A stretch of 33,922 nucleotides of DNA from Thermoanaerobaculia bacterium (GCA_027067575.1 JAMOVQ010000123.1:1-33922), one strand, 5' to 3'. Shown: positions 6,210-33,922, counted from the stretch's first letter. Notes: a model not told the origin generated them from the sequence alone. A program made the numbers and translations.

Positions 6210-6218
6210 ACGACCGTC

Positions 6219-6224
6219 AGGATA
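6219..6224 (-). promoter_or_regulatory. -10 box upstream of the histidine kinase gene
   Basis: On the minus strand TATCCT lies nine bases before the ATG at 6209, leaving room for only a minimal leader. No strong -35 box is visible. It supports the shorter start of the kinase gene. Confidence 0.35.
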
Positions 6225-6322
6225 CCCGATCATTCCCGCACCGTGACCCAGCCCGGAACAGGAATCGTTCCGTCCGGAACAGCACGAACCGCCAGTGTGC
6301 CGGTGGATACCTCCCCGTTTTG

Positions 6323-8305
6323 GTGCGATACTTGCTCCTGGACAGGACCGTGAGGCTCGACATCCGCCCCCGCTCCCTCCTGACGAGGGTTCTCGCCGCG
6401 TTCGCCATCGTGGCGCTCGTCCCCGTGGCCGTCCTGGCCCCCTCCCTGATCCGGCTCGACCGGGAGGCGATGACCACCCAGGTCCTCAGGACCCACTCCG
6501 TGGCCGCACGGGCCACGGCAGAACGGATTGCGGCGCGGCTTCAGGGTATCGAGGCCATCATGGCCGACATCGCGGAGAACCCTGAGCTCGCCCGGAAGGG
6601 CGGGCCGGAGCGCCTGCTGCGGGGGCTCTTGCGGAGACGTCCCGAGATCGCTGCCGTCGTGTTGACCGATCCGGCGGGCGAGACGGTGCTCGGCGTCCAG
6701 CGAAAGGGACTGAGGTCTGTGGTCTCCACGGTCCTCCGGACGCCACCGGCACCGGTTCCCGAGGTGGTTCCGGCGAAACAGGGCCGATGGATCGTCCTCT
6801 CCACGCCGCTGGCCGGAGATGCCGGGTGGCTCCGCCTGATCATCGATTCGGGTTGGGTCTCCAGGATCCTCCGCCCCGAGGAGATCGGCGAGGAGGCCGA
6901 GCTCGCCGTGATCGGGCGGGATGGCTCGATCCAGCTCGTCTCTGGAGACCAACTCCTCGAGCTTCCCGCCGGTCTCCTGGCCGCGGCCCGTGGCGGGCGG
7001 ACCTCGGGAGCCAGCGCGTTCCCGGCTGGTGGCGGCGCCATCCTCGGGGCATGGGCCCCCGTTCCGGGGACGGCGTGGACCGTGGTTTCGTTGCAACCCC
7101 GGGCGATCGCCGAAGCCGTGGCAGTCCGGATGCGCCGGCGGGCCGCACTCGCCGTGGCGCTCGGTCTGATCCTGGCTGCCGCCCTCGCCGGGGGCGCATA
7201 CCGTTCGGTCGTGCGCCCCCTCCGGCGGCTGCTCGCGACACAGCGGAAGCTCGAGGGACTGACCGAACGCCCGCACACCGGGGACGAGCTGGCGCTCCTC
7301 GAGGAATCGCTCTCGGTGCTCGCACGGCGCCTCGCCGATCGCGAAGATCTGGGGAGCGTGTTTCTCGGACGGTACCAGGTGCTCGGCGTCCTGGGAGAGG
7401 GGTCGATGGGGACGGTGTTCCGCGGGTGGGATCCCAAGCTACGGCGTCCGGTGGCGTTGAAGACGGTCCGTCCCGAACGGTCCGGGAGCGAGCGGAGATC
7501 CAACCTGCTCGACGAGGCCGCCGCGGCGGCCCAGCTCGTCCACCCCAACGTGGTGGCCGTGTACGACGTCGTGGAGCGGGACGGGGTGGGGTTCATCGCC
7601 ATGGAGCTGATCGACGGCATCGGGCTCGACCGGCTCCTGGCCGTCAGGGGAACCCTCGCCCCCGGAAACGTGGCCGTGCTCGGTCACGCAATGGCCGAGG
7701 GACTGGCGGCCGCCCACGGGGTGGGGCTCGTCCATCACGACGTCAAGCCCGGCAACGTCCTCCTCGGGTTCGACGGTTCGATCAAGCTCGGGGACTTCGG
7801 CGTGGCCCGTTTCGCGGGCACCGGAGATGACGAACGCTCCGTGGTCTATGGCACACCGGGATACATCCCGCCGGAAGCGCTCGAGGGGCGCGGATACGGG
7901 CAGGTCGGGGATCTGTTCGCCCTGGGAGCGGTCCTCTACCGCTGTCTGACCGGTCGGCTGCCGTTCAGGGGGAAGAATCTGGGCGAGATGATCGTTCGAA
8001 CCATCGAGGGGGATCCTGTCCCGGTGGAGACGATCCGCCCGGGTGTTCCCGCCGAGCTCGCCACCCTCGTCATGCAGCTCCTCGAGAGGGATCCTGCCCG
8101 TCGGGGAGGGAACGCGGCCGTCGTGGCGGAGCGGCTGGAGCGACTCGTCACGCTCAACGGCTGGTCATGGGATCCGCCGGAACGGGTAGAGTGTGCGGGA
8201 TTGGAAGGAGTGACACGTGACCGGATCGAACGTTCACAGTGCGTGCCGACTGGCCGGATTCCTGGCACTGGCAACGGTGTCGGCAGCAGCAGCCGGACCG
8301 GCTGA
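6323..8305 (+). CDS. Receptor-like Ser/Thr protein kinase with Cache-like sensor
   Basis: About 660 residues. An N-terminal membrane helix ('VLAAFAIVALVPVAVLAP') is followed by a double-Cache-like extracytoplasmic domain (about 40-270), a second helix ('AALAVALGLILAAALAGGAY'), a HAMP-like linker, and a Hanks-type kinase domain from about residue 350. Kinase motifs are 'GEGSMGTVFRG', Lys380 in 'VALKTV', catalytic Asp473 in 'VHHDVKPGNVLL', and Asp491 in 'DFGVARF'. The usual HRD arginine is His, so it is a non-RD kinase. The layout copies a histidine-kinase or chemoreceptor chassis with a Ser/Thr kinase output. The start is uncertain: GTG 6323, TTG 6320 or GTG 6350. The last 89 bases overlap the next gene, which has a strong ribosome site, so the C-terminal tail is probably dispensable. 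Confidence 0.88.
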   Translation: MRYLLLDRTVRLDIRPRSLLTRVLAAFAIVALVPVAVLAPSLIRLDREAMTTQVLRTHSVAARATAERIAARLQGIEAIMADIAENPELARKGGPERLLRGLLRRRPEIAAVVLTDPAGETVLGVQRKGLRSVVSTVLRTPPAPVPEVVPAKQGRWIVLSTPLAGDAGWLRLIIDSGWVSRILRPEEIGEEAELAVIGRDGSIQLVSGDQLLELPAGLLAAARGGRTSGASAFPAGGGAILGAWAPVPGTAWTVVSLQPRAIAEAVAVRMRRRAALAVALGLILAAALAGGAYRSVVRPLRRLLATQRKLEGLTERPHTGDELALLEESLSVLARRLADREDLGSVFLGRYQVLGVLGEGSMGTVFRGWDPKLRRPVALKTVRPERSGSERRSNLLDEAAAAAQLVHPNVVAVYDVVERDGVGFIAMELIDGIGLDRLLAVRGTLAPGNVAVLGHAMAEGLAAAHGVGLVHHDVKPGNVLLGFDGSIKLGDFGVARFAGTGDDERSVVYGTPGYIPPEALEGRGYGQVGDLFALGAVLYRCLTGRLPFRGKNLGEMIVRTIEGDPVPVETIRPGVPAELATLVMQLLERDPARRGGNAAVVAERLERLVTLNGWSWDPPERVECAGLEGVTRDRIERSQCVPTGRIPGTGNGVGSSSRTG

Positions 8306-9605
8306 GCCGACCGCCGTGGTGGCGCCTCCTGGCGGGACGCTCACGCTCGAGGTCCCGACACCCGGCACCACGGTGGAGGCAGCGCTCGATGGTGGCGTCA
8401 TGACACCGGTACCGGACCGACAGCTCGTCACACCCCCGGAGGGGGTCCACTGGCTCGCCGTCCGCTCGCGTTCTCCTCTCGGGATCGGATCCGCCGTTCG
8501 GTGGACGCTCCTCGTGGTCGACGGGACACCACCCGAGCTCGAACTGACGGTGGCCCCCGACCCCGTCGAGGCCGGGGGCCATCGGTGGGTCCCGAGAGGG
8601 GCGGCGGTTCACCTCACGGCCTCGGACGCGACGGCGGGAGTCGCGGAGACGGCACTGTTCGTCGACGGCGTCCCCGTCTCCGGCCCGGACAGCACCACAC
8701 TCGACGATGAGGGGCCGGTCGTGATCACCGCCCGTGCCGAGGATCGCGTCGGGAACCACTCCGAACGGCGCCTCGAGCTCGTCGTGGACGGAACACCCCC
8801 GGCCGTGCGGCTCGAAACCGGGCAGCCGGCCGTCCGCGGAGACGCCGGGCTCGTGGTGGCTGCCGCCACGCCGTTTCACCTCTCGGCGGAGGACTCCGGT
8901 TCCGGTGTCGCCTCGACGTTCCTCGAACTGGACGGACAGACCGTGGCACCCGACCGTCTCCAGGAACCGTGGCCCGCCGGTGAACACACACTCTCCGCGA
9001 CCGCCGAGGATGGGGTCGGAAACCGTACCCAGCCCGTGGAGCTCCGGTTCATCGTCGACACGGAGCCACCGTCGATCCTGTGCAAGGCCCGAGGCGCAGC
9101 GGAGGCCACGATCAAAGGCCATCGGTGGTTCCGCACTCCTCTCCAGGTGACCTGCACCGTGGACGACGATCTCGCCGGGGTGGCCTCCGTGGTCCGCCGT
9201 GACGCCGATCTCTGGACCACTGGAGCAACCTTCGTTCTCTCGGACCGTGACACCGTGACGGTCCGCGGAACGGACCGCGTCGGGAATACGGTGGAACGGA
9301 CGTTCCGATGGGCGGTGGACAACGATCCGCCGGAACCGATCCTCCGGTCAGTGGAGGGGCAGCCCGTTGGACCGGCCGTGACGCTCGCCACCGGCGAGGC
9401 GCTCGTCCCCGGGGCGGTGGACCGAGACTCCGGAACGGCCACCATCGCTTACCGGATCGGTGGTGGCGCATGGATCCCGATCGCGGGCCCCATCCGGTTC
9501 CGGCACGCCGGGCGGTACGACCTCGAGCTGAGAGCGTGCGACGCCTTGGGTAACTGCACGAAACGTTCGTGGATCATCGAGGTGATCAGAAGGGAAAGCC
9601 GATGA
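8217..9605 (+). CDS. Secreted repeat protein with OmpL47-like/Ig-like modules
   Basis: A 462-residue protein. The start is the GTG at 8217, preceded by GGAAGGAG, inside the 3' end of the kinase gene. The N-terminus 'LAGFLALATVSAAAAGPA' is a signal peptide. The body is four or so beta-sandwich-type repeats punctuated by 'VVDGTPP', 'VVDGTPP', 'IVDTEPP' and 'AVDNDPP', each followed by 'DxxSGVA..' or 'DRVGN' strings. This is the pattern of OmpL47 or bacterial Ig-like surface modules. It ends in a final beta module and overlaps the next gene as ATGA. A role as an extracytoplasmic ligand-binding or structural partner of the receptor kinase is inferred from the operon only. Confidence 0.82.
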   Translation: MTGSNVHSACRLAGFLALATVSAAAAGPAEPTAVVAPPGGTLTLEVPTPGTTVEAALDGGVMTPVPDRQLVTPPEGVHWLAVRSRSPLGIGSAVRWTLLVVDGTPPELELTVAPDPVEAGGHRWVPRGAAVHLTASDATAGVAETALFVDGVPVSGPDSTTLDDEGPVVITARAEDRVGNHSERRLELVVDGTPPAVRLETGQPAVRGDAGLVVAAATPFHLSAEDSGSGVASTFLELDGQTVAPDRLQEPWPAGEHTLSATAEDGVGNRTQPVELRFIVDTEPPSILCKARGAAEATIKGHRWFRTPLQVTCTVDDDLAGVASVVRRDADLWTTGATFVLSDRDTVTVRGTDRVGNTVERTFRWAVDNDPPEPILRSVEGQPVGPAVTLATGEALVPGAVDRDSGTATIAYRIGGGAWIPIAGPIRFRHAGRYDLELRACDALGNCTKRSWIIEVIRRESR

Positions 9606-11035
9606 ACGGACGCCGCAACCTCACCGTTGCCGTCATCGTGCTGCTCGGTCTCGCGGCGGCCGCAACGGCGCAGACGCCGACCCCGGCACCACGGCCCGGA
9701 GACACCCTCGGATGGTACGTCGTCCGGCCCGGTGACACCCTCGAGGGGATCACGGAACGGTTCCTCGGCACCCCGAAGTTGTGGCGCGAGAACTGGCGCC
9801 TCAACCCGTGGCTCAAGGATCCCCATACGCTCCACGCAGGCGATCGGCTCCGTGTGATCGTCTCCCGGCAGCTCCCCCCGCGGAGCGCGGAGCTGGAGAA
9901 AGTCGCGCGGCGGGTCGAGGAGAAGCCGCACCCCAACCCGTGGATTCCCGCCCGGGAAGGCGATCTCCTCCGGGAGAACGACGGATGCAGGACGTACCGT
10001 GACTCCTCCGCCCGGCTCCGGTTCGACGACGGAACCCGCGTGACGCTGACGGAGGAGTCGCTCGTGTTCCTGCGCCGCGTGGAACGGACACTCGAGGGCG
10101 TCGACCACGACACTGTGGAGGTCGTGCGGGGACAAGCCGACCTCCAGCTCGAGCCGGAACGTCCCACGTCTCTGGACGTCGAGGTGGTCGTCGGCCCGGC
10201 CGTGGCGCGTCCCCGGCCCGGCCGGACCGGGCGCGGAACCGCCCGCCTCCGTCGCGAAGGGAACCACGGGGCGAGCGTCATGGTGTACGAGGGCGCCGGC
10301 GCCGTGGAGGCTGCGGGAACGGCCGTGGAGGTCCCCGAGGGGATGGGGACGGCCGTTCCGGAGAACGGCCCGCCCTCTCCCCCGGAGCCGTTGCTTCCCG
10401 CCCCCCGGCCAATCGGGCCCGAACCTGGAGCGGTTGTCGGCTGGAACAACCCGAGGCTCTCGTGGACCGCCGTTCCCGGCGCCGCCTCCTACACCGTGGA
10501 GGTCTGCCGGGACACGGCGTGCGCCGAGCTCGTCGCCCGGGCGACCGGGATCCGCGACACGGCGATCCGGATGGACCCGCTTCCGGCCGGTGCCCTCTTC
10601 TGGCGGGTCCGCGCGGTGGCCACGTCGGGCCTCGACGGCTACCCCTCGGCGCCGCGCCGGTTGGAGATCGATGGGGAGTCGCCGGACCGTCTTTCCCCGG
10701 TGGTGGCCATCGCCGCCGGACCTGGAACCGCCGTGGGCGACGGCGGCTCGCTCGTGGCCATGCCCGGTGGCACGATCATTCTCGCAACCACCGACGACGT
10801 CTCCGGGACCGCGACCGTACGGTACCGCTGGGACGGCGGCGCATGGCGGACATGGAAAGGCAAGCCGATCTCCGTTCCGGAAGGAACGGGTCCGCGAACC
10901 CTCGAGGTCGAGGCGTTCGACCGGGCCGGCCGGCACGGAGGACCGTGGCGTGCCACCGTGGACGGAGCCGATGCACCACCGGAGCCTCCGGTAATCCACG
11001 GCGGCGTGGAAACGGGAGGGAGGATCGATGGGTAG
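9602..11035 (+). CDS. LysM and FecR domain envelope protein with Ig-like repeats
   Basis: A 477-residue exported protein. The signal peptide is 'LTVAVIVLLGLAAAATAQ'. A LysM peptidoglycan-binding module follows at about 28-80 ('YVVRPGDTLEGITERFLG', 'HTLHAGDRLRVI'). A FecR-type domain spans about 115-235 ('SSARLRFDDGTRVTLTEES'). A fibronectin-like segment follows ('LSWTAVPGAASYTVEVC'), then a final Ig-like module ending 'EAFDRAGRHGG'. LysM-FecR-Fn proteins are cell-wall-anchored periplasmic proteins. Here it is translationally coupled to the preceding repeat protein by ATGA and overlaps the downstream regulator by 8 bases. No TonB receptor or FecI-type sigma factor is nearby, so a classical iron-dicitrate role is unlikely. 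Confidence 0.86.
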   Translation: MNGRRNLTVAVIVLLGLAAAATAQTPTPAPRPGDTLGWYVVRPGDTLEGITERFLGTPKLWRENWRLNPWLKDPHTLHAGDRLRVIVSRQLPPRSAELEKVARRVEEKPHPNPWIPAREGDLLRENDGCRTYRDSSARLRFDDGTRVTLTEESLVFLRRVERTLEGVDHDTVEVVRGQADLQLEPERPTSLDVEVVVGPAVARPRPGRTGRGTARLRREGNHGASVMVYEGAGAVEAAGTAVEVPEGMGTAVPENGPPSPPEPLLPAPRPIGPEPGAVVGWNNPRLSWTAVPGAASYTVEVCRDTACAELVARATGIRDTAIRMDPLPAGALFWRVRAVATSGLDGYPSAPRRLEIDGESPDRLSPVVAIAAGPGTAVGDGGSLVAMPGGTIILATTDDVSGTATVRYRWDGGAWRTWKGKPISVPEGTGPRTLEVEAFDRAGRHGGPWRATVDGADAPPEPPVIHGGVETGGRIDG

Positions 11036-12509
11036 GGCGAAGGTACTCGTGGTTGATGACGATCCGGCGATCCGGCAGCTCCTGGCCGCGACCCTCGCAG
11101 GAAACGGATTCGAGCCGATCCTCTGCGAGGATCCGCAGCGCGCCGTGGAGCGCGCCCGGAGCTCCGGCGTCGAGGCCGTCGTGCTCGATCTGATGATGCC
11201 TGGCATGTCGGGGTTCGAGGTGCTCGACCAGCTGCGCCGAGATCCGCTGGTGGCGCACATCCCCGTCCTGATTCTCTCGGCGAAGTCGGCTGGATCCGAT
11301 CGCGTCGAGGGGCTCCGGGCCGGCGCCGACGACTACCTTGCCAAGCCGTTCGATCCCGCAGAGCTGGTCATTCGCATCGGCCGTCTTGTCAGCGGACACG
11401 GCCGGGAACGTGACGTCATCCTCAGCGGTGAACTGGGAGGGCTCTCCGCGGGCGACATCCTCCAGCAGGTGCTCGCATCGGGAATCGACGGGGTGCTCCA
11501 CGTGGGCGGGGCCCCTCCGGGGGCGGTGGTCGTCCACGAGGGCCAGATCCGGGCGGTCCGGTGCGGCGAGCTCGAGGGCGAATCGGCTCTCCTGGTCCTG
11601 CTGGAGCGGCGCTCCGGACGGTTCCGGTTCCTGCGAAGCGACGTCGGTTCCAACCAGCCCGAGGACGAGGCCATCGGGCTTCAGGGCGCTTTGATGCAGC
11701 TCGCCTGGCTCGAGGACGAGCTCGAACGAAACCGCCAGCACCTGCCCCCTCCTGGTGCACCCCTTCACCCGGCTCGGCCGGACGAGGAACCGGAGGAGTC
11801 GGAATGCTCCGCCATCGGAACGGTCCTCGCGTGGTTTCGCGACCATCCAGGAAGCTCCCTTGCAGATCTCGAGTCCGCGGCGCTCCTGGCCCCGGCCGAG
11901 GCCCGTCTTGCCGTCGCCATCCTGTGCAGGGACGGGTTCCTGGAGGCCCTGAACACGGCCGAAGAGGAGAGCCCGGCCCCCGACATCTCCGAATCGATCG
12001 AGGCGCTGTGCGTCCGGCTCGAGGCCCGCGCCGTCGTCCTGGGAAAGGCACCCGGCGTGGTGCACCTGCTCCTCGCCGTCGCTCCGGAACGGTGGGAGGG
12101 GTTTGTCGGAGAGTTCACCGCCACGTTCCCGAGCGAGCTGCTCGGCCGGCCAACGGAGCACGTCGTCGAGGAGCTTCGGGGAAACGGATCGGCAAGCCTC
12201 CGAATCTCCTGCACGGACCGGACCTTGCTCCTCCACGCGCACCGGCTGGGCGGCCTCTCCGGACTCCGGGCCAAGGCGTTCCTGTCCCTGGCGTCCTTCA
12301 TCGTCCTCGTGCCGTCCGGAGCACCGTCCCGTGAGGAGATCGAGTTCATCGACGCCCTCGAGAAGTCGGCTGGATCGGGTGAACGGAGCCTCGTCGTCGT
12401 CCCCCCCGACGAAGGTCGAGGGGAGGGCCTGAGAATCCCCTCCGGCGCACGGATCGCCGACCGCATTCCGGCAACTCTGGAGGAGCTTCTCGAGGTGGTT
12501 CTCGGTTGA
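11028..12509 (+). CDS. Response regulator with REC and PATAN (DUF4388) domains
   Basis: A 493-residue protein starting at an ATG behind GGGAGG and overlapping the upstream stop. The receiver domain (1-120) has the acidic cluster 'VVDDD', phospho-acceptor Asp54 in 'VVLDLMMPG' and Lys106 in 'LAKPF', so it should be phosphorylatable. Residues about 133-260 are a PATAN/DUF4388 domain ('LSGELGGLSAGDILQQVL...GVLHVGG', then 'GAVVVHEGQIRAVRCGELEG'). The last 150 residues have an alternating strand-helix pattern loosely like a small GTPase without a P-loop; this is an inference. No cognate histidine kinase lies in this operon; the Ser/Thr kinase gene does. PATAN proteins are often linked to motility and polarity control. 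Confidence 0.87.
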   Translation: MGRAKVLVVDDDPAIRQLLAATLAGNGFEPILCEDPQRAVERARSSGVEAVVLDLMMPGMSGFEVLDQLRRDPLVAHIPVLILSAKSAGSDRVEGLRAGADDYLAKPFDPAELVIRIGRLVSGHGRERDVILSGELGGLSAGDILQQVLASGIDGVLHVGGAPPGAVVVHEGQIRAVRCGELEGESALLVLLERRSGRFRFLRSDVGSNQPEDEAIGLQGALMQLAWLEDELERNRQHLPPPGAPLHPARPDEEPEESECSAIGTVLAWFRDHPGSSLADLESAALLAPAEARLAVAILCRDGFLEALNTAEEESPAPDISESIEALCVRLEARAVVLGKAPGVVHLLLAVAPERWEGFVGEFTATFPSELLGRPTEHVVEELRGNGSASLRISCTDRTLLLHAHRLGGLSGLRAKAFLSLASFIVLVPSGAPSREEIEFIDALEKSAGSGERSLVVVPPDEGRGEGLRIPSGARIADRIPATLEELLEVVLG

Positions 12510-12552: not shown

Positions 12553-13113
12553 TCAGCTCCCGGCGCTGCCGACGCCCACCCGGATCAGGCGCTCGATGAG
12601 AGCCTCGGGCATCCCCGTGACCTGATGGATCAGCTGCAGTCGGTGCTCGTTGTAGGCGAAGTTGATCACCATCAGCGCGAGATCCATCACCTTGACGAGG
12701 CTTCCGTAGACGGCGAGCGCCTCCGCCTCCTCCACGGCGACGTCGAGAATCGCTGCAAGGAGATCCCTGCGGAGAACGTTCATCACCGCATCAACCCAGA
12801 GAGAATCCAGAGCGATCCGGACATGGACCTGTCCCACGACGAGCTGCCGCTCGAAGAACGGCTCGCCGTATTCACCCGAGAACAGGGCACGGAGCCACTC
12901 CAGGTGGGTCCGTTTGAGCGTCTCGAGCCGGCCCTCGAGAAAGTGGGCCAGCTGCTCCTCGCGGCCGAGAAGCGCGTAGAACCGGTCCGTGATCTTGGGC
13001 AGACGGTCTTCGATGCGGGGCAGAAAGCCTGTCAGCCTTTCCTCGTCCTCCGGCCCGAGGCCGAGGAACTCACGCATGCTCAGGAACGCCTGTCTGGAGG
13101 AGGTGTGCGACAC
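12553..13113 (-). CDS. Single-domain protoglobin (haem sensor), copy B
   Basis: A 186-residue all-helical protein spanning a protoglobin/globin-coupled-sensor domain. The key block is 'ERQLVVGQVHVRIALD', where His97 matches the proximal haem ligand. 'RFYALLG' and 'HFLEGR...LKRTHLEWLRALFSG' match the family's B-E region. Protoglobins bind O2, CO or NO and usually sense them. No output domain is fused, so signalling must go through partners. The start is the GTG at 13113, four bases after the preceding stop, with GGGGAGAG upstream. It is the last gene of the cassette and the second protoglobin in it. Confidence 0.88.
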   Translation of the reverse strand: MSHTSSRQAFLSMREFLGLGPEDEERLTGFLPRIEDRLPKITDRFYALLGREEQLAHFLEGRLETLKRTHLEWLRALFSGEYGEPFFERQLVVGQVHVRIALDSLWVDAVMNVLRRDLLAAILDVAVEEAEALAVYGSLVKVMDLALMVINFAYNEHRLQLIHQVTGMPEALIERLIRVGVGSAGS

Positions 13114-13116
13114 GGC

Positions 13117-13677
13117 TCAGCTCTCCCCGGCACCGGCTCCGGTGATCTGCCGTAGCTGCTCCTGAACGGTCTCGGCGACGACCCGGACCTCCTCGATCGA
13201 GGGAACCCGTCCGCCGATCGATCCGATGAGAATCTCCTCATTCGCCCATTCGAACGTCATCAACGCGACCTCGGGCTCTCCCTCGGCCATCACCACGACC
13301 CTGCGGACCGGCCGCTTGGGACCGAGGTAGGTCTCGAGAAGCTGCGAGATCGAGGTGAACGCGGCGAGCAACACTTCGGACGGAACGGTCCCCGGCTCCC
13401 CCGCCCGTGCAATGGGGAATCCGCGCTCGTCCATGGCGAACGTCCCCATCGCCCCGAGGCCCTCCCGGAGCCAGACGAGGAGCGCCTGCCACAGCTCCTC
13501 CGTGTAGCGAACAGCGGGGGCCACGAACGGAGGAAGGGTAGAGACAGCGGGTTCGGCCGGCGCCGTCTCGACGGGTTGCAGAGCAAGCGGCCGGACCGCC
13601 GATTCCCTGCGGCGGAGCGCCCTCGAGAGGCTGGACGCGGCGGACAGCTCAAAGAAGTGTCTGGACTGGCCCGGCAT
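13117..13677 (-). CDS. Roadblock/LC7-like protein with long N-terminal linker
   Basis: A 186-residue protein from the ATG at 13677, behind GGAGGAG and overlapping the end of the ParA-like gene by 29 bases. Residues 1-60 are low complexity, rich in Ala, Pro and Arg. Residues about 60-180 read as a roadblock-type alpha/beta domain: helix 'EELWQALLVWLREGLGAMGTFAMDERGFPIA', then 'ISQLLETYL', 'RRVVVMAEGEPEVALMTFEW' and a C-terminal helix. The match is weaker than for the two upstream roadblock genes. The tight spacing (3 bases to protoglobin B) suggests it works with ParA or with the protoglobin. Confidence 0.65.
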   Translation of the reverse strand: MPGQSRHFFELSAASSLSRALRRRESAVRPLALQPVETAPAEPAVSTLPPFVAPAVRYTEELWQALLVWLREGLGAMGTFAMDERGFPIARAGEPGTVPSEVLLAAFTSISQLLETYLGPKRPVRRVVVMAEGEPEVALMTFEWANEEILIGSIGGRVPSIEEVRVVAETVQEQLRQITGAGAGES

Positions 13678-14455
13678 GGGTCTCCTCCTTGACGGCAAGC
13701 CGGTCGAGGATCTCGCCGGCGAGCATCTGGAACCGCCTCCCCTCGGGATGGATCCCGGCGGCCATGAACCCCACGGGAACGCCGTGGAGGCTGGCCTCGA
13801 GGTAGACGGGGTTCCTCGGGACGATGGTCTCGAACAGCACGTCGGGATCCAGGTCCCGCCAGGCCGAACGGACCACCTCCAGGGAGGCCTCGGCATCCCT
13901 GTCGAACATCATCAGGACCAGCCCGAGCAAAGATAGTCCGGGGTTCTGGTGTTCCCTGACACGGGCCATGGCCTCCAGAACCAGATGCACCGACCGCAGG
14001 GAGAGCGGTTCGGCCTGGACGGGGATCAGCGCATGGGTCGATGTCCCGAGGGCCCCCAGTGTCGCCCCGGTGATTCCCGAGGGACAGTCGAGCAGGACGA
14101 TCTCCGCATCCAGTCCGTCGAGGACGGGCCCCAGGACCTCCGGGTTCGAGAGAAGCGTGTGGAAGTCCGGAGCCTCCAGCGGATCCACGTCGCCGACCGG
14201 CAGGAGGGAGAGCCCCGACACCTTCGTATGTACGAGGGCGTCCTCGAGGGTCGTGCCGCCCCGCACCACCTCGTGGAGACCCGCCATGGACCGGTTGGGC
14301 CGCAGCAGAGACGCCGCGAGGGATTCCTGGGGATCGAGCTCGACGATGGTGGTTGCATGGCCGAGCTGGGAGAGGGCAAGCCCCAGATTGAGGGCCAGAG
14401 TCGTCTTGCCCACACCGCCCTTCTGACTACAGATGGCAATCCTCGGTCCGTTCAT
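13649..14455 (-). CDS. ParA/MinD-like Walker-type ATPase
   Basis: A 268-residue cytoplasmic ATPase. The deviant Walker A is 'QKGGVGKTT' (Lys12 and Lys17), the A' motif 'IVELDPQESL', and Walker B 'AEIVLLDCPSG'. It lacks an obvious C-terminal amphipathic membrane helix, so it is more ParA-like than MinD-like. ATG 14455 follows GAGGTC, seven bases after the ODP gene; the 33 codons upstream in frame are unsupported. There is no parB gene or parS-like site nearby, so this is probably not the chromosome-partition ParA. It more likely acts as an orphan that positions a protein complex. The neighbouring roadblock proteins are the obvious candidate cargo. Confidence 0.85.
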   Translation of the reverse strand: MNGPRIAICSQKGGVGKTTLALNLGLALSQLGHATTIVELDPQESLAASLLRPNRSMAGLHEVVRGGTTLEDALVHTKVSGLSLLPVGDVDPLEAPDFHTLLSNPEVLGPVLDGLDAEIVLLDCPSGITGATLGALGTSTHALIPVQAEPLSLRSVHLVLEAMARVREHQNPGLSLLGLVLMMFDRDAEASLEVVRSAWRDLDPDVLFETIVPRNPVYLEASLHGVPVGFMAAGIHPEGRRFQMLAGEILDRLAVKEETHAGPVQTLL

Positions 14456-14462
14456 GAAGACC

Positions 14463-15275
14463 TCACAGGATCTCGGCCAGCACGCTCTCGATATTGCTGG
14501 CCGGGTAGAGCAGGTCAAGGCCACAGGGCAGGGCGGCAAGGCTCTCGATCGCACGTTCCACGTGTTCTTTCGGGATGATCGAACCGTGCTGAGGGCAGAT
14601 TGCCTCGATCGGGAACGGATCGAGCTTCTTCAGAAACCCCTTGAGCGCCTTGTTCGAGGCCATGTAGAAGATATGGAACGGAATCATTGTCTGCCAGTGC
14701 CGTTCCCATTCCGTGACCACGAGCGACCATTCCTTCTCGATCGCCGCACCGATGTCACCGGAGAACAGGAAACCGCTGACCTCGTCGTACGTGACGAACG
14801 CCTCCGGGAAGTGGAGGAACGGCGCGGTGATGAAGACGAGGGATCCGTTCGTGAGATCCAGGGTCGTGGAATCCTCCGGAGAGACGTCGAGCCACGAGAC
14901 CTCGGCGGGGAACCCGTAGTACGGCAACAGCACCCGAACACGGGGAGTGGTGACGATGGTCAGATCCGGCGCCAGCTCCAGCCAGGAAGGGAGCGAATCG
15001 CAGAGATCGGGATCCTGGTGGTGGACCACGACGTGGGTCAGCGAGGAGGCGGGAACGATCCGTTCCACACGCTCCCGAACCTGGGGGAAGTGGTGCAGGG
15101 TCGAACCCGGATCGATCAGGATCCGGTTCCCTCCATCGACGATCAGATAGGCGTTGCAGCGAAACGGAGACGGTTCCTCCGAACCGACCCAGTAGATCGC
15201 ATGGTCGCCTTCGAAGAGGCAGACCGGCGAACCAAGGTCCACCGGGCCGCGCGCAAGCTCGGGTATCCGGTTCAT
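14463..15275 (-). CDS. ODP-type di-iron oxygen-sensor protein (metallo-beta-lactamase fold)
   Basis: A 270-residue protein of the COG0426 metallo-beta-lactamase fold without the flavodoxin half of flavodiiron proteins. Metal-ligand candidates are 'HHQDPD' (His86, Asp88, Asp90), the His in 'FLHFPEAF', the Asp in 'LFSGDIG', and the His in 'CPQHGSII'. The HxDxD form with no following histidine matches the ODP family, which binds O2 at a di-iron site and acts as a sensor in some chemotaxis systems. The start ATG has GAGGAGAGG upstream. It lies between roadblock and ParA genes with spacers of 10 and 7 bases, so it is probably an oxygen or redox input of the cassette. Confidence 0.82.
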   Translation of the reverse strand: MNRIPELARGPVDLGSPVCLFEGDHAIYWVGSEEPSPFRCNAYLIVDGGNRILIDPGSTLHHFPQVRERVERIVPASSLTHVVVHHQDPDLCDSLPSWLELAPDLTIVTTPRVRVLLPYYGFPAEVSWLDVSPEDSTTLDLTNGSLVFITAPFLHFPEAFVTYDEVSGFLFSGDIGAAIEKEWSLVVTEWERHWQTMIPFHIFYMASNKALKGFLKKLDPFPIEAICPQHGSIIPKEHVERAIESLAALPCGLDLLYPASNIESVLAEIL

Positions 15276-15285
15276 CGTCCTCTCC

Positions 15286-15651
15286 TCATCCTCGGATGAT
15301 CTCGTCGAGGTACCGCTTCATCTTCAGTCGCAGATACCCGATGTTCCCGGACGACGCGATGGCCACTGCCAGGAAGACCCTCTTCCCGTGATGGGGACGG
15401 ATCAGGATGTAGTGCTTCGTCGTCGTAATCAGGATCTCGTCGTTGCCACCCATGGAGATGATCCCGCCGAGCGCCTCGTACGCCTCGTGGTGGGCGCGGA
15501 CCAGGGCGGCGTACTGTTCGAGCCGGCCGCCGAGATCGAGGGAACCCTCGGTCTCCACGCCGAGCAACTCCCCGTCGAAGGTCGCCGCCAGCGATGCCTC
15601 GTGACCCGGAATCTCCGCCGGAATGCGTGCAAGTACTGTCTCGTGTGCCAT
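15286..15651 (-). CDS. Roadblock/LC7 domain protein 2
   Basis: A 121-residue single-domain protein. The central pattern 'GHEASLAATFDGELLGVETEG', then 'AYEALGGIISMGGNDEILITTTKHYILIRPH', then 'VFLAVAIASSGNIGYLRLKMKRYLDEI' is the roadblock/LC7 order of helix, two strands, helix, three strands and helix. Such proteins dimerise and regulate Ras-like GTPases (MglB type) or serve as scaffolds. The ATG lies behind GGAGGCGCC, eight bases after the previous stop. No MglA gene is nearby. Confidence 0.83.
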   Translation of the reverse strand: MAHETVLARIPAEIPGHEASLAATFDGELLGVETEGSLDLGGRLEQYAALVRAHHEAYEALGGIISMGGNDEILITTTKHYILIRPHHGKRVFLAVAIASSGNIGYLRLKMKRYLDEIIRG

Positions 15652-15659
15652 GGCGCCTC

Positions 15660-16025
15660 CTACAGGATCTCCCGGACGTTGCTGACCAGCCGTCCCACGT
15701 CGAGGAAGATCAGGCCGAGCTTTGCCTTCTTTGTGGTCAGGACGAGGACCAGCGTCTCGTCCGTGGCCCGCCGCAGGAGCACGTACCCATCCGCTCCCTG
15801 GACGTACACCTGATCGAGGGTTCCCCGGGCGAGCTCACTGGACGTCCGGTCACCCAGGGAGAGCATCGCCGCAGCCATGGCGGCGACCCGCTCCTCCTCC
15901 ATCGTGGCCGGCAGATGGGCCGTGATGATCAACCCGTCGTTGGTGATGACCGCGCTCCCCTCGATGTCCGGCGTGGCCGTGTGGAACGAGCGCAAGAGCC
16001 CGTTCAGCTTCTCCATCCTGTTCAT
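15660..16025 (-). CDS. Roadblock/LC7 domain protein 1
   Basis: A 121-residue protein: 'LNGLLRSFHTATPDIEGSAVITNDGLIITAHLP', 'ERVAAMAAAMLSLGDRTSSEL', 'DQVYVQGADGYVLLRRATDETLVLVLTTKKAKLGLIFLDVGRLV'. This is a textbook roadblock/LC7 domain and the best match of the three. ATG 16025 has AAGGAGG seven bases upstream; the 24 extra upstream codons are unsupported. A 112-base gap separates it from the 117-aa gene, and it is followed by four tightly packed genes. It may pair with roadblock 2 as a heterodimer (inference). Confidence 0.9.
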   Translation of the reverse strand: MNRMEKLNGLLRSFHTATPDIEGSAVITNDGLIITAHLPATMEEERVAAMAAAMLSLGDRTSSELARGTLDQVYVQGADGYVLLRRATDETLVLVLTTKKAKLGLIFLDVGRLVSNVREIL

Positions 16026-16081
16026 CGTCGCCTCCTTACGATCGTTCTCCCACCGGTGATCCACCTCTCGTGACCGCGTGA

Positions 16082-16133
16082 GCGGTACGGCATCCATTGT
16101 ACTGGACCTCGTCAGGGTTCCTCGGGGTACCGC
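16082..16133. promoter_or_regulatory. Inverted repeat in the gap before roadblock gene 1
   Basis: GCGGTAC at 16082-16088 and GTACCGC at 16127-16133 form a 7-base inverted repeat in the 112-base gap between the 117-aa gene and roadblock 1. On the minus strand a TACAAT string lies between the arms. It could be an internal promoter with an operator or an RNA hairpin. The GTACCG core also occurs at 21708-21720. Confidence 0.3.
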
Positions 16134-16137
16134 CTCA

Positions 16138-16491
16138 CTACGCCGTGTCGAGACCGACCGAGTGCCTCAACCACGCGTGGACCCAGGGAACGAGCTCGCC
16201 AGCCGGTGCGAGGCACTGCTCGCTCTCCGGAGGACGTCGTGTGCCTTCCACAACCCGGACCTTTGCCCTCCGGATCGCCCCATCTCGCCCATCAGGCCGC
16301 GATCCGCATTCCTCGAAGACGATGGGAGCCCCTGCCGACTCATCCGGTCCGATGACCAGCTCGATCACCCCGGCCTCCACCAGTGGGAAGAGGTTCAGCA
16401 TCAGCTCGTCGAGAACGATCCCGGGCCCCATCCTGACCATCACCTGCCGCGGCCCGTCGATCTGTCGTGCTGTCCCGTCTCCTGGCTCCAT
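16138..16491 (-). CDS. Hypothetical protein, first gene behind a sigma-54-like promoter
   Basis: A 117-residue protein that I do not recognise. ATG 16491 is chosen because GGGAGGAG lies just upstream and a sigma-54-like -24/-12 element ends 23 bases before it. Residues about 20-60 ('VMVRMGPGIVLDELMLNLFPLVEAGVIELVIG') form a helix-rich hydrophobic core, with a strand-like 'APIVFEECGS' after it. The C-terminus is 'ELVPWVHAWLRHSVGL'. There is no signal peptide or membrane helix. Its position at the head of the roadblock/ODP/ParA/protoglobin operon suggests a dedicated partner of that system. Confidence 0.65.
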   Translation of the reverse strand: MEPGDGTARQIDGPRQVMVRMGPGIVLDELMLNLFPLVEAGVIELVIGPDESAGAPIVFEECGSRPDGRDGAIRRAKVRVVEGTRRPPESEQCLAPAGELVPWVHAWLRHSVGLDTA

Positions 16492-16513
16492 GCTCTCCTC
16501 CCGGGTGGAACGT

Positions 16514-16529
16514 TGCAAGCACCGTGCCC
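16514..16529 (-). promoter_or_regulatory. Sigma-54-type -24/-12 promoter P3
   Basis: On the minus strand GGGCACGGTGCTTGCA matches the consensus TGGCACG-N4-TTGCW at every fixed base except the first T. The essential GG-N10-GC spacing is exact. Twenty-three bases separate it from the ATG at 16491, with GGGAGGAG between. It would drive the 117-aa gene and the roadblock/ODP/ParA/protoglobin genes downstream. Confidence 0.65.
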
Positions 16530-16580
16530 AATGTTCCCGGGAACCGTTCTGGGTGGACCGTCTCAAACTGTCCCGTTCCC

Positions 16581-16626
16581 TGACACGACATGCTCCGGGC
16601 CGGTCCGATCCGAAGCATTCGTGTCA
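16581..16626. terminator. Large imperfect hairpin after the receiver-PATAN gene
   Basis: Arm TGACACGACATGCTCCGG (16581-16598) pairs with CCGAAGCATTCGTGTCA (16610-16626), with one bulge and one mismatch. On the minus strand it starts at the stop codon of the receiver-PATAN-TPR gene and ends upstream of the sigma-54-like promoter. I read it as a boundary hairpin separating two transcription units. No T tract follows, so a large regulatory-protein site is an alternative. Confidence 0.5.
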
Positions 16627-17514
16627 CGCCCCCTCCCCCTGGCGCCGCTCCTCGAGGATCTGCTCAACTCGACGAAGGTTGTGGAGCGCCGTCCGCTCCC
16701 CAGGGCTGTGTTCCAGAGCCCGGCGGAACGCCTCACGGGCCCGCTCGTAATCACCCGCCAGCGAGGCCTCGATCCCCTCCGTCATGGCCTCGAGATATCC
16801 GGCCTCGTCACGCTTCTCCCGGACTCCCCTCCTCCCGGCGCCTGCCGACGCCGTGTCCTCCGCCACCGCAAGGTCAAGGAGCGCCTGGGCCACGGACAGG
16901 TTCAGCTCGCCGTCCTCGATCGCCGACCGCACCCCCTGGACACGGAACGACCGCAGGCCGCACCCGAGGAGCCTCCCGAGCGCCTCCATCCCGGTCACGT
17001 CACCGCACCGCGCCTGCCGGAGCACACCCCGTTCCAGGGCGACGGAGCCAGAATCGCCCTCGTCGGTGATCACGAGGAACCGGATCGTGTGCTGTCCAAG
17101 CGCCGCCAGCTGAAGGTAGTCAGCGAGGTTGAACGGCGGAGCCCCACGGCGACGTTCGGACCCTGGTGATCTGGAGGACTCCACGAATCGCCGGACCTGT
17201 TCGGGGGAAATCGGCTTCGGCAGGACGGTGATCTCCAGCTCTGGCGGCTCCTCCATGAGGGTTCCGAGCACCAGGACGGGCACCTCCACGTGCATCCGGG
17301 CGAGCCCTGCAATGACCGATGTGGCCTCTGGATGATCGCCGTCCACGATGAGGAACGCCGGATTCCCGGAGAGCACCGCGGCCAGGGTGGATTCGGCCGT
17401 CTCGTGCGCCGCCGTCGTCACCGGTCCTTCCTTGTCGAGGATACGGCTCAGGGCCAGCACGAGAGGCGTGTCCTGGGTCAGGAGAACGGCGAACGGCGTT
17501 GCGGCCCGGGTCAT
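16624..17514 (-). CDS. Degenerate receiver-PATAN-TPR protein
   Basis: A 296-residue protein. Residues 1-115 are receiver-like: 'FAVLLTQDTPLVLALSRILDKEG', 'PAFLIVDGDHPEA', 'VPVLVLG', and 'VLPKPISPEQVRRF'. The Lys-Pro is kept, and an Asp is near the phosphorylation position in 'IVDGD'. The N-terminal acidic pair is mostly lost, so phosphorylation is doubtful. Residues about 128-200 match a PATAN/DUF4388 core ('FNLADYLQLAALGQHTIRFLVITD', 'GSVALERGVLRQARCGD'). The C-terminus has one or two TPR-like helices ('LAGDYERAREAFRRALEHSPGE'). ATG 17514 follows GAGAGAGCG. It sits between protoglobin A and the sigma-54-driven part of the cassette and likely connects the sensors to partner proteins. Confidence 0.78.
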   Translation of the reverse strand: MTRAATPFAVLLTQDTPLVLALSRILDKEGPVTTAAHETAESTLAAVLSGNPAFLIVDGDHPEATSVIAGLARMHVEVPVLVLGTLMEEPPELEITVLPKPISPEQVRRFVESSRSPGSERRRGAPPFNLADYLQLAALGQHTIRFLVITDEGDSGSVALERGVLRQARCGDVTGMEALGRLLGCGLRSFRVQGVRSAIEDGELNLSVAQALLDLAVAEDTASAGAGRRGVREKRDEAGYLEAMTEGIEASLAGDYERAREAFRRALEHSPGERTALHNLRRVEQILEERRQGEGA

Positions 17515-17521
17515 CGCTCTC

Positions 17522-17605
17522 TCAGCCCTCCACCCCGTCCACGGACAGGGACCGCACGGCGCGGAAGCCAGGTCCGCAACCCATCATCGGCCGTGTGCGA
17601 GCCAT
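17522..17605 (-). CDS. Possible 27-aa leader peptide
   Basis: An ATG at 17605 preceded by GGAGAGAG reads 27 codons and stops seven bases before the receiver-PATAN-TPR start. The C-terminal half is 'GPGFRAVRSLSVDGVEG'. It could be a small leader or a chance frame in the 111-base gap. The ribosome site is the only positive evidence. Confidence 0.2.
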   Translation of the reverse strand: MARTRPMMGCGPGFRAVRSLSVDGVEG

Positions 17606-17625
17606 CGCATCTCTCTCCAGCCCGT

Positions 17626-18225
17626 TCACCTCCCGGACTCGTCCTCTCCGGTCAACTCCGCCTTGAGACTTCGAAGCGTCATCGCCTCGAGCCGCTCGGC
17701 GAGCTCCCACGTGAACCCGGTGGCCTCGAGGAGGCTTCTCCGGTACCCCTCGTCCACCACGGTGGTGGTCAGGGCGACGACCGAGTCCAGCATCCGCTGG
17801 AAGGCCAGGTAGAGCTCCACCCCCTCCTCCACGCCGAGATCCTCGATCGCAAGCTTCAGCACCACCTCGCGGATCCTCGTGGCGAGCCCCACCATTTGAC
17901 GGTTCGGAATCCTCCGCTGGATGTGTTCCAGGCCGATCACGAGCTGGCGCGTCCAGAACTGCTCCGTGGCGTGGGCCTCGAGAATCTCACCGAGCCAGAC
18001 ACCGAGCCGCCGCTTGAGGGATTCGAGATCCCCCCGGCCCTCTTCGAAGACTCTGGCGCTCTCCGGATGCCCCGAGACAACACCGGCGATGAAATCGATC
18101 AACGCTCCTCCGTGCCGCTGGAAGAACTCCCGGTGCTTCCGGAAGAGCTCGAGGTCCGCCTCGCCGAGACCGATCATCCCCCGGATGTCCTCGACGTGAG
18201 CCTTCTGGCCGATTGGTAACTCCAT
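17626..18225 (-). CDS. Single-domain protoglobin (haem sensor), copy A
   Basis: A 199-residue helical protein with the protoglobin pattern. 'ADLELFRKHREFFQRHGGALIDFIAGVV' is the N-terminal part, and 'FWTRQLVIGLEHIQRRIPNRQMVGL' carries the likely proximal ligand His101. A long C-terminal helix pair follows. It is divergent from copy B, so the two may have different ligand affinity. ATG 18225 has GGGGGAA upstream; the 19 extra upstream codons are unsupported. It is the first gene of the cassette and has its own -35/-10 promoter. Protoglobins bind O2, CO or NO; the ligand cannot be set from sequence. Confidence 0.84.
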   Translation of the reverse strand: MELPIGQKAHVEDIRGMIGLGEADLELFRKHREFFQRHGGALIDFIAGVVSGHPESARVFEEGRGDLESLKRRLGVWLGEILEAHATEQFWTRQLVIGLEHIQRRIPNRQMVGLATRIREVVLKLAIEDLGVEEGVELYLAFQRMLDSVVALTTTVVDEGYRRSLLEATGFTWELAERLEAMTLRSLKAELTGEDESGR

Positions 18226-18268: not shown

Positions 18269-18285
18269 CCAGTGGTGCCCACTGG
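18269..18285. promoter_or_regulatory. Perfect inverted repeat in the leader of the cassette
   Basis: CCAGTGG-TGC-CCACTGG is a perfect 7-base inverted repeat with a 3-base centre. It starts about five bases after the expected transcription start of the protoglobin A promoter and lies about 44 bases before the ATG. This is a typical place for a repressor operator; an RNA hairpin is the alternative. Confidence 0.5.
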
Positions 18286-18296
18286 CAGCTGTCTCG

Positions 18297-18325
18297 AGCA
18301 TACGCAGTTTCCGCATCCGATTCAA
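18297..18325 (-). promoter_or_regulatory. Housekeeping-type promoter of protoglobin A
   Basis: On the minus strand TTGAAT, a 17-base spacer and TATGCT form a good -35/-10 pair. The expected transcription start is near 18290, giving a leader of about 65 bases that contains the inverted repeat at 18269-18285. Confidence 0.65.
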
Positions 18326-18527
18326 GATCCATCCTTTCACGAACCTTCGAGCCACGGACGGTGACCTCACACCGTTGGGTCGGCGATCCTCCGGGGCCTC
18401 CGTCCACCCCGTTTCGCCCCTGGGGTCATCACGAGGACCGGCCTGCGGCCCGAGATCCAGGCCGCCAACATTCGCGCGCACACTGGCATGGACACGGACA
18501 GCCGCAACGCGCTCCACTCCCCAGGAG

Positions 18528-18676
18528 CCCAGGGACGAGCGAAGCGACGTCCCGGCTGGCGCCTCAGAGAACCAGGTCCTCCACGATCGGGACTGTCCCC
18601 ACAACGAAGCCCTCCGCCATCCAGCGATCGAGCGCCCCACGAGGAACGGGCCGGCGTGGGGGCGGGGGCGGTCCGG
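18528..18676. repeat. Extragenic repeat module A copy
   Basis: A 149-base segment repeated without gaps at 27566-27714, differing at scattered positions. It starts with the hairpin GGGACG-AGCGAAGCGA-CGTCCC (18532-18553), contains the palindromic GGGACTGTCCC, and ends in a G-rich tract. Related units form the tandem array at 33.6-33.9 kb. The AGCGAAGCG core resembles REP-type elements. No coding content is credible. Confidence 0.85.
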
Positions 18677-19040
18677 CGACGGAGGCGAGGACAAGCCCCG
18701 GGACGGCCGTCGGGACGCCGAACGCAGGCGGCTTGGCCCGACGGGGCGGGCGGGTTGGGGGAAGGGTAAGTCGCCGAGTACGGCGTATCCGGCGAGCCGT
18801 CCCGGGGTGCAGCCCGAGCCGCAGGAGCCGGGGCGCACACGCCCCCACGGCCCCGGGGAGCGCAGCGACCCGGGGTGCGCCGCGAACGCGGCGCCCGGCC
18901 GCGACCGCGCCCCAACGAAGCGAAGAGGGGCCGCGCAGGCTCGTCCTCCGGTGCCGCCGCGGCGAGGGGGCAAGGAGGAGCTGACCTCCTGGTCGCGACG
19001 ACGCCGCCCCCGAAGCCGCGGTGGTGCCGGAGGGCGAGTA
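18677..19040. other. Gene-free, hairpin-rich stretch
   Basis: There is no supported gene here; open frames are explained by very high GC. It holds several strong inverted repeats, for example GCGCCGCG-AA-CGCGGCGC (about 18878-18896) and a CCCCGG...CCGGGG element with an AGCGCAGCG core. These look like further members of the repeat family. The whole interval 18326-19443 appears free of genes. Confidence 0.6.
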
Positions 19041-19227
19041 TCGCGGCCCCGTTCATTCAAAGTCGATGACTCGAAGCCCTCCAACGAAGCCCAGGCGGCC
19101 GGCAGCGACGCCGCAGGCGGCGCCAGCGCGTCGCACGGGCGAACCGGGGGGAGCTCGCTCCCACCGGGACGCGCGGGCGAGGCGCGCAGCCCGCGCGAAG
19201 CGCGGGGGCCGGCCGCCGGTTCGCCCC
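19041..19227. repeat. Long extragenic repeat, module B copy 2
   Basis: Nearly identical to 26-213, including the perfect hairpin CCCGCGC-GAA-GCGCGGG at 19190-19206. After it, 19228-19443 shows no gene, only a short inverted repeat CGGACC-ACC-GGTCCG at 19345-19359 downstream of the next minus-strand stop. Confidence 0.85.
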
Positions 19228-19443
19228 ACGCCATATCATCCGCAACGAGCCGCCGAGCCGCAGGACACGTCTGCCTGAGAGACCTTCGCGATGAAAGGGT
19301 GCTGAGCACGGGTCCGGACCCCGTTCCATCGAGTCATGCGGTCGCGGACCACCGGTCCGAGGCCCGATCCCGATGAACGGCCGCCAACCATCGGAGGAGA
19401 CCCGGGGGAATGGTTCCGCCCGGCGATCTTGTCCTGGAACGGC

Positions 19444-27565: not shown

Positions 27566-27794
27566 CCCAGGGACCAGCGAAGCGATGTCCCGCTTGGCGC
27601 CTCAGAGAACCAGGCCCTTCACGATCGGGACTGCCCCCACAACGGAGTCCTCGGCCATCCAGCGGTCGAGCGCTCCACGAGGAACGGGCCGGCGTGGGGG
27701 CGGGGGCGGTCCGGGGGGAGCTCGCTCCCACCGGGGCGCACGGGCGAGGCGCGCAGCCCGCGCGAAGCGCGGGGGCCGGCCGCCGGTTCGCCCC
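27566..27794. repeat. Composite extragenic repeat, module A joined to module B
   Basis: 27566-27714 matches 18528-18676 without gaps, and 27713-27794 matches 132-213 and 19146-19227. Here the two modules are fused directly, while at 18.5-19.2 kb they are 360 bases apart. The perfect hairpin CCCGCGC-GAA-GCGCGGG lies at 27757-27773. It fills most of the gap between the putative-Ig and HD-GYP genes; the remaining 27795-27885 shows nothing recognisable. Confidence 0.85.
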
Positions 27795-27885
27795 ACGGTT
27801 GCGTCCCCGCTGGCCACGGCCACGGTCGCGGGACATGGTGCCCGGGGGCGTTCCTTCGAGCTCCGAGAAGGGCGGGGAGCCACCC

Positions 27886-33626: not shown

Positions 33627-33922
33627 CCAGGGACGAGCGAAGCGACGTTCCGACTGGCGCTCCAGAGGACCTGAGCCCGTCACGATTGGGACTGTCCTTT
33701 CAACGAGTCCAACCCGCCGGTCGAAACGAAGGACCTCCCACGTGGTACCCCACTCACCCACCGCCCCAGGGACCAGCGAAGCGACGTCCCAGCTGGCGCC
33801 TCGGAGAACCAGGCCCTTTACGATCGGGACTGTCCCCAACCCGACCGACCCGTTGGCCGAAACGAGACCGCCCCGCCTGGTACCCCATTCACCCACCCGC
33901 CCAGGGACGAGCGCAGCGACGT
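33627..33922. repeat. Tandem array of module A units
   Basis: Units begin with CCAGGGACNAGCGNAGCGACGT at 33627, 33766 and 33901, giving periods of 139 and 135 bases. Each unit has the REP-like hairpin, a 'cctcNgagaaccagg' string, 'acgatcgggactgtccc', a variable part, and the link 'ggtaccccaNtcacccacc'. The array continues off the right edge. Short frames running through it reproduce repeated peptides such as 'GTVPIVKGLVL' and are not genes. Confidence 0.85.

Follow-up and report, generated by a model that had tools for sequence, protein, structure and literature searches.

The nine genes found between positions 12553 and 18225 of the window, that is, of the 33,922-nucleotide stretch analyzed here, are most readily interpreted as an oxygen-responsive roadblock-ParA module. 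A di-iron oxygen-binding protein (ODP) and stand-alone globins would signal through roadblock dimers to a ParA-type ATPase and PATAN proteins and thereby to a polar machine, for which the type IV pilus (T4P) is the most plausible candidate; a probability of about 50% is assigned to this reading. It is the best explanation of the observed gene content, gene order, conservation and intact metal, haem and Walker motifs, and from these we infer the protein-protein steps and the output. The recurrence of its core in distantly related genomes of Acidobacteriota suggests a genuine oxygen-response system that has apparently not been described. The genomes compared are those of Acidobacteriota, and, the neighborhood survey of the original ODP paper aside, no description of the combination was found in the literature searched, in agreement with the sequence-only reading of this DNA, which knew of no system with this exact set. 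Likewise, no paper was found that joins a protoglobin with a roadblock protein, or a roadblock LC7 protein with a ParA ATPase.

Gene layout and protein families

The window is an entire contig (C123) of a draft genome of 3.08 Mb in 191 contigs. All nine genes reported by the sequence-only reading are present on its minus strand, in the order pgb1, receiver-PATAN-TPR, 117-aa protein, rb1, rb2, ODP, ParA, rb3 and pgb2 when followed from 18225 to 12553. The successive intergenic gaps amount to 111, 132, 112, 8, 10, 7, -29 and 3 bp; with gaps of 3-10 bp or an overlap, the genes from rb1 to pgb2 form one tight run. The Rfam scan of the window gave no match. With respect to the families originally assigned, Pfam recovers both protoglobins, the ODP, ParA and rb1, whereas rb2 and rb3 are recognized only by profile comparison, homologues and fold.

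The ODP gene (14463-15275, minus strand) encodes a stand-alone protein of 270 aa that matches PF19583 with an E value of 3e-59. The Treponema denticola and Thermotoga maritima ODPs of known structure (6qrq, 6qnm) are matched at 2e-40 and 1e-35, compared with only 2e-15 for the best flavodiiron protein; the cassette protein resembles them in family, in stand-alone size (~250-270 aa) and in its ligand positions. These positions (H86, D88, D90, H155, D174, Q229 and H230) are invariant in nine sequences, the Gln-His pair of motif 5 (PQHG) is present and a flavodoxin domain is absent. The Gln substitution in the last motif has been described for the T. maritima ODP (PMC7785958). By these sequence features, the protein is classified as a true ODP and not as a flavodiiron protein; it is the only ODP found in the host genome.

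The two stand-alone sensor globins, pgb1 (17626-18225, minus strand, 199 aa) and pgb2 (12553-13113, minus strand, 186 aa), match Protoglobin with E values of 2e-16 and 6e-24, and they are the only globin domains found in the host genome. The name protoglobin is thus correct at the Pfam level, but the nearest relatives are globin-coupled-sensor domains: the AfGcHK globin (5ohe) is the closest solved structure for pgb1, and 2w31, Tlr1989, AfGcHK and HemAT are the solved relatives of pgb2. The proximal haem histidine is intact in both proteins (His101 in pgb1, His97 in pgb2). In contrast to AfGcHK, the cassette globins are separate proteins, and the distal B10 tyrosine is retained only in pgb2 (Tyr46), being replaced by Ala47 in pgb1. 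Alanine also occupies this position in the globins of G004, G006 and G016 (loci L017, L018 and L020) and, by eye, in that of G009 (L074). Taking into account that AfGcHK uses its distal Tyr45 for O2 (PMC8697598), the ligand of pgb1 and its relatives may not be O2; judging from this residue, pgb1 may read another ligand, or O2 in a different way.

Among the roadblock genes, rb1 (15660-16025, minus strand, 121 aa) is the clearest, with a Robl_LC7 match at 3e-15 and a profile match to CvnB5 (3leq) at 4e-18. The divergent rb2 (15286-15651, minus strand, 121 aa) scores 0.012 against Robl_LC7, under the Pfam cut-off, and aligns with rb1 over its full length in hhalign (E 1e-4); it is present in three genera of the family, with 68-74% identity in L017 and L018, and is probably a roadblock protein by these alignments. 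The third protein, rb3 (13117-13677, minus strand), begins with a conserved stretch resembling a helix, which a Pro-rich linker joins to a divergent roadblock-like domain. It has no Pfam match of its own, and its homologues in other genomes match Robl_LC7 (best 2.5e-4). Its profile weakly matches exclusively roadblock/MglB-type chains in the PDB, and the listed Foldseek matches of its low-confidence AF2 model are all roadblock-type, none passing 0.001. Because the direct comparison between rb3 and rb1 is weak (hhalign probability 10), its assignment depends on the homologues and the fold search, according to which rb3 is probably a roadblock protein. Its start overlaps the end of parA, and in the module generally it lies just after or overlapping ParA; this position, together with its architecture, fits a ParA partner.

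The ParA-type deviant Walker-A ATPase (13649-14455, minus strand, 268 aa) matches AAA_31 at 1e-21 and ParA/Soj structures at 1e-50 to 1e-40. Its nucleotide-binding motifs are intact, the deviant Walker A motif KGGVGKTT being invariant in the ParA alignment. The 11 module copies score at E <= 1e-104, against >= 1e-61 for the paralogues that these genomes encode, and on this basis the module ParAs are assigned to a module-specific subfamily of their own. Furthermore, a C-terminal linker with a Leu/Ile-Leu/Phe end is found in 11/11 module ParAs and in 0/19 of the paralogues listed. This tail, which ends in -LL in the window protein, is possibly a docking tail, with rb1 or rb3 as partner.

The receiver-PATAN-TPR protein (16624-17514, minus strand, 296 aa) has a degenerate receiver with no Response_reg match, and its PATAN (DUF4388) and TPR matches are sub-threshold. 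The architecture proposed for it is nevertheless clear in relatives (L074): orthologues are present in L017 and L018, and L021, L022, L059-L061 and L074 encode proteins of like architecture. In addition, a convergent gene on the plus strand (11028-12509, 493 aa) combines an intact receiver (Response_reg 4e-27), a PATAN domain (DUF4388, 4e-7) and a long C-terminal region. L017 and L018 each have a counterpart at this convergent position, with 46-48% identity, and the RR-PATAN gene belongs to the module; the boundary originally drawn at 12553-18225 left it out. The 117-aa protein (16138-16491, minus strand) matches nothing in Pfam or NCBIfam and shows no similarity to the roadblock profiles, and its AF2 model (pLDDT 44) has no callable fold. 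It had been described as an orphan, but positional homologues at 34-40% in L017 and L018 make it family-specific.

Conservation and variants of the module

Two further genera of the family (G004, L017; G006, L018) share eight of the nine genes in unchanged order, which is more than chance would give: pgb1-PATAN-117aa-rb1-rb2-ODP-ParA-rb3 is followed there by the convergent RR-PATAN gene, without pgb2. The neighborhood comparison, which the sequence-only reading had named as the test of its proposal, therefore finds the genes kept together. A scan of genome contigs with the ODP gave a single match, the public record JAADFK010000026.1, which is the same contig as that carrying L017. In G009, the genes are divided between one contig with RR-PATAN-ParA-rb3-RR-PATAN-TPR-pgb1 and another with rb1-ODP-kinase.

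The core rb1-ODP-RR/PATAN-ParA-rb3 recurs in six further Acidobacteriota families. In the sample of 396 genomes of this phylum, module-type ODPs (E <= 1e-104) are present in nine, and rb1 lies beside the ODP in 9/9; conversely, the best 10 rb1 matches fall in the same nine genomes, each adjoining an ODP. Some of these loci had served to build the profiles. Five genomes not used in building them (G108, G147, G278, G360 and G426) display the arrangement rb1-ODP-(RR-PATAN-TPR or RR-PATAN)-ParA-rb3, with the PATAN gene last in G360. ODPs without rb1 nearby also exist (L024, L025 and L064), and hence not all ODPs belong to the module. Two weak ODP matches were discarded, a flavodiiron-type protein by sequence in G024 and a partial, low-scoring match in G062.

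Versions of the module without ODP are also encountered. G054 carries a full ODP module (L021), a shorter ODP locus (L022) and an ODP-free version (L097, contig C10) with the order RR-PATAN-(roadblock-like)-rb1-ParA-rb3, and a reduced rb1-ParA-rb3-kinase locus occurs in G273 (L096, contig C225). Since such ODP-free cores exist, the inputs to rb1-ParA-rb3 appear to be interchangeable, ODP and globin being two of them.

The distribution of the globins is narrower. Orthologues of pgb1 are found in G004, G006 and G009, and among 149 genomes of the class no homologue of pgb2 other than pgb1 was detected at E<1e-6; by this search, pgb2 is considered specific to the window's genome. Within the family, a globin accompanies 5/5 ODP-positive and 1/9 ODP-negative genomes, with P=0.003 only if the genomes are treated as independent, although they are related. 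No globin of the pgb type was present in the seven ODP-bearing genomes checked outside the family, and the globins are a later addition within it. The essential unit is rb1-ODP-PATAN-ParA-rb3, to which the family has added pgb1, rb2 and the 117-aa protein; of the cassette first proposed as a set, the core is conserved, while the remainder is restricted to the family or, for pgb2, to this genome only.

Proposed mechanism, related systems and alternatives

The earlier claim that none of the sensors carries an output domain is supported, and they would consequently act by binding. The ODP, through its di-iron site, and, in the family of the window's genome, a stand-alone globin would sense oxygen or some related gas. 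The sensor state would be handed to roadblock dimers of rb1/rb2, which, with the linker-roadblock protein rb3, would govern both where the dedicated ParA is located and its nucleotide cycle. The PATAN response regulators would act on the target, with input in most relatives probably coming from a nearby PAS histidine kinase. As the target, type IV pilus or polarity machinery is more plausible than either a CheA array or the flagellum. Two observations count against this scheme: the block of the window's lineage contains no histidine kinase, and pgb1 and its relatives lack the distal tyrosine by which other sensor globins bind O2. That the module represents a new class of spatial signaling, with roadblock dimers acting as the gate of a dedicated ParA under plug-in gas sensors to give oxygen-dependent polar positioning, is advanced as a tentative proposal, with the odds somewhat against it.

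Several lines of evidence bear on the output. FliG is absent in 10/11 ODP-module genomes and CheW in two of them (G278, 97% complete, and G426), which makes flagellar chemotaxis, the known use of ODP, unlikely. ATPases of the T4P/type II secretion type occur in 11/11 of these genomes, which is weak evidence, as such proteins are common in bacteria (PF00437 was matched in 13/14 control genomes). By eye, an mglA-mglB pair is present elsewhere in the host genome. PATAN regulators of cyanobacteria are linked to PilB, the motor of the type IV pilus (PMC7690835), and the vicinity of mglB homologues has been reported to contain PATAN genes (PMC4316618). Collectively, these observations favor a polar machine, be it the type IV pilus or another, and the output would most plausibly be its polarity or its activity; the role in localization or motility suggested by the sequence-only reading is something that we, too, infer.

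The chemosensory alternative, an oxygen-sensing arm of a CheA/CheW system, has a precedent in T. denticola, where the ODP TDE2498 is coupled to a cytoplasmic receptor and affects CheA ordering (PMC7666581), and a CheW gene is present on another contig of the host genome. The cassette ODP, in contrast, is accompanied by genes for roadblock, PATAN and ParA proteins; neither receptor genes nor che genes were seen beside the module ODPs inspected, the receptor and CheA-CheW partners of the T. denticola pathway were not seen in the module, and the FliG and CheW absences described above point the same way, so that this explanation is very improbable. Scavenging is the least credible of the alternatives: the ODP would be a flavodiiron-like reductase, the globins would bind or detoxify O2 or NO, and the other genes would be chance neighbors. 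ODPs are related to flavodiiron proteins, and globins are able to bind NO; nevertheless, both a flavodoxin domain and a reductase gene are absent from the block, Gln229 in PQHG is an ODP-type and not an FDP-type signature (PMC7785958), and the roadblock/ParA/PATAN company is constant across families.

Unlikely, but of more weight, is a two-component pathway controlling gene expression or a second messenger, in which ODP and globins would modulate a PAS kinase, the RR-PATAN protein would be the main output and roadblock and ParA proteins would serve only as a scaffold. In L019-L022, L059, L060 and L063, a PAS histidine kinase lies next to the module, and the receiver of 11028-12509 is intact. 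The window itself encodes, at 3801-6233 (minus strand), a histidine kinase that matches PAS and, weakly, GAF; its N-terminal part apparently spans the membrane, and it is a possible partner of the RR-PATAN proteins. This kinase is the nearest in the window, however, and the blocks of the window, G004 and G006 contain none. Moreover, no DNA-binding or GGDEF domain was found in the regulators tested, and ParA and rb3 are conserved to the same extent as the regulators.

The roadblock-ParA reading can also be compared with characterized systems. The pairing of an output-less stand-alone sensor with a PATAN regulator resembles PixD-PixE, in which a BLUF sensor directly binds a PATAN protein acting on PilB (PMC7690835), although PixD-PixE senses light, not gas, and lacks roadblock and ParA proteins. 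The Streptomyces conservons (CvnA kinase, CvnB roadblock, CvnC, CvnD GTPase) follow the same kinase-roadblock-NTPase logic. No Ras-like GTPase, as in conservons or MglAB, is encoded within the block, where the ParA-type ATPase takes its place, and no CvnC was seen; the cassette adds PATAN regulators, a second, linker-borne roadblock and the ODP/globin sensors. The Myxococcus MglA/MglB/RomR system employs the same component types (roadblock, response regulator and NTPase) in setting polarity, but the cassette has ParA and metal/haem sensors without MglA, the host mglA-mglB being at a separate locus. If the reading is correct, stand-alone ODPs gain a second, non-chemoreceptor signaling route, roadblock proteins are linked to a ParA ATPase and not to Ras-like GTPases, and a flagellum-independent way is offered in which Acidobacteriota may respond to oxygen. 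Direct tests of interaction are straightforward thanks to the conserved core and to the C-terminal tail of ParA.

Flanking genes, other ODP and roadblock loci, and repeats

Three optional neighbors on the plus strand encode a Ser/Thr kinase with a weak dCache match (6320-8305), an Ig-like protein (8217-9605) and a LysM-FecR protein (9569-11035). In G009, too, the trio lies beside the module at its globin end; it was rejected as the output, the LysM-FecR gene being found in only 2/20 relatives (the window's genome and G009).

At L023 and L025, tandem ODP gene pairs lie, by eye, beside apparent NiFe-hydrogenase subunit genes, followed in L023 by a PAS kinase. More distant ODP-like domains occur in long open frames of other Acidobacteriota families (L039-L046, e.g., G112:C60 and G304:C109) and are possibly ODP fusions or flavodiiron proteins. 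At L093 (G148:C118, 3513-4662), an rb1-like gene, a second roadblock-like gene and the apparent end of a small GTPase gene form, by eye, a conservon-like arrangement; the proximity of an rb1-like to a small-GTPase-like gene agrees with the described role of roadblock proteins in regulating NTPases (PMC4316618).

Directly upstream of the cassette, a dispersed mosaic repeat is present at 18283-19443, with pieces 82-96% identical. Further pieces are located at 5-216, 27566-27797 and 33627-33838, so that repeats sit at both contig ends, and the same repeat ends two other contigs (L076, 4044-4538; L078, 16-309); it probably breaks the assembly.
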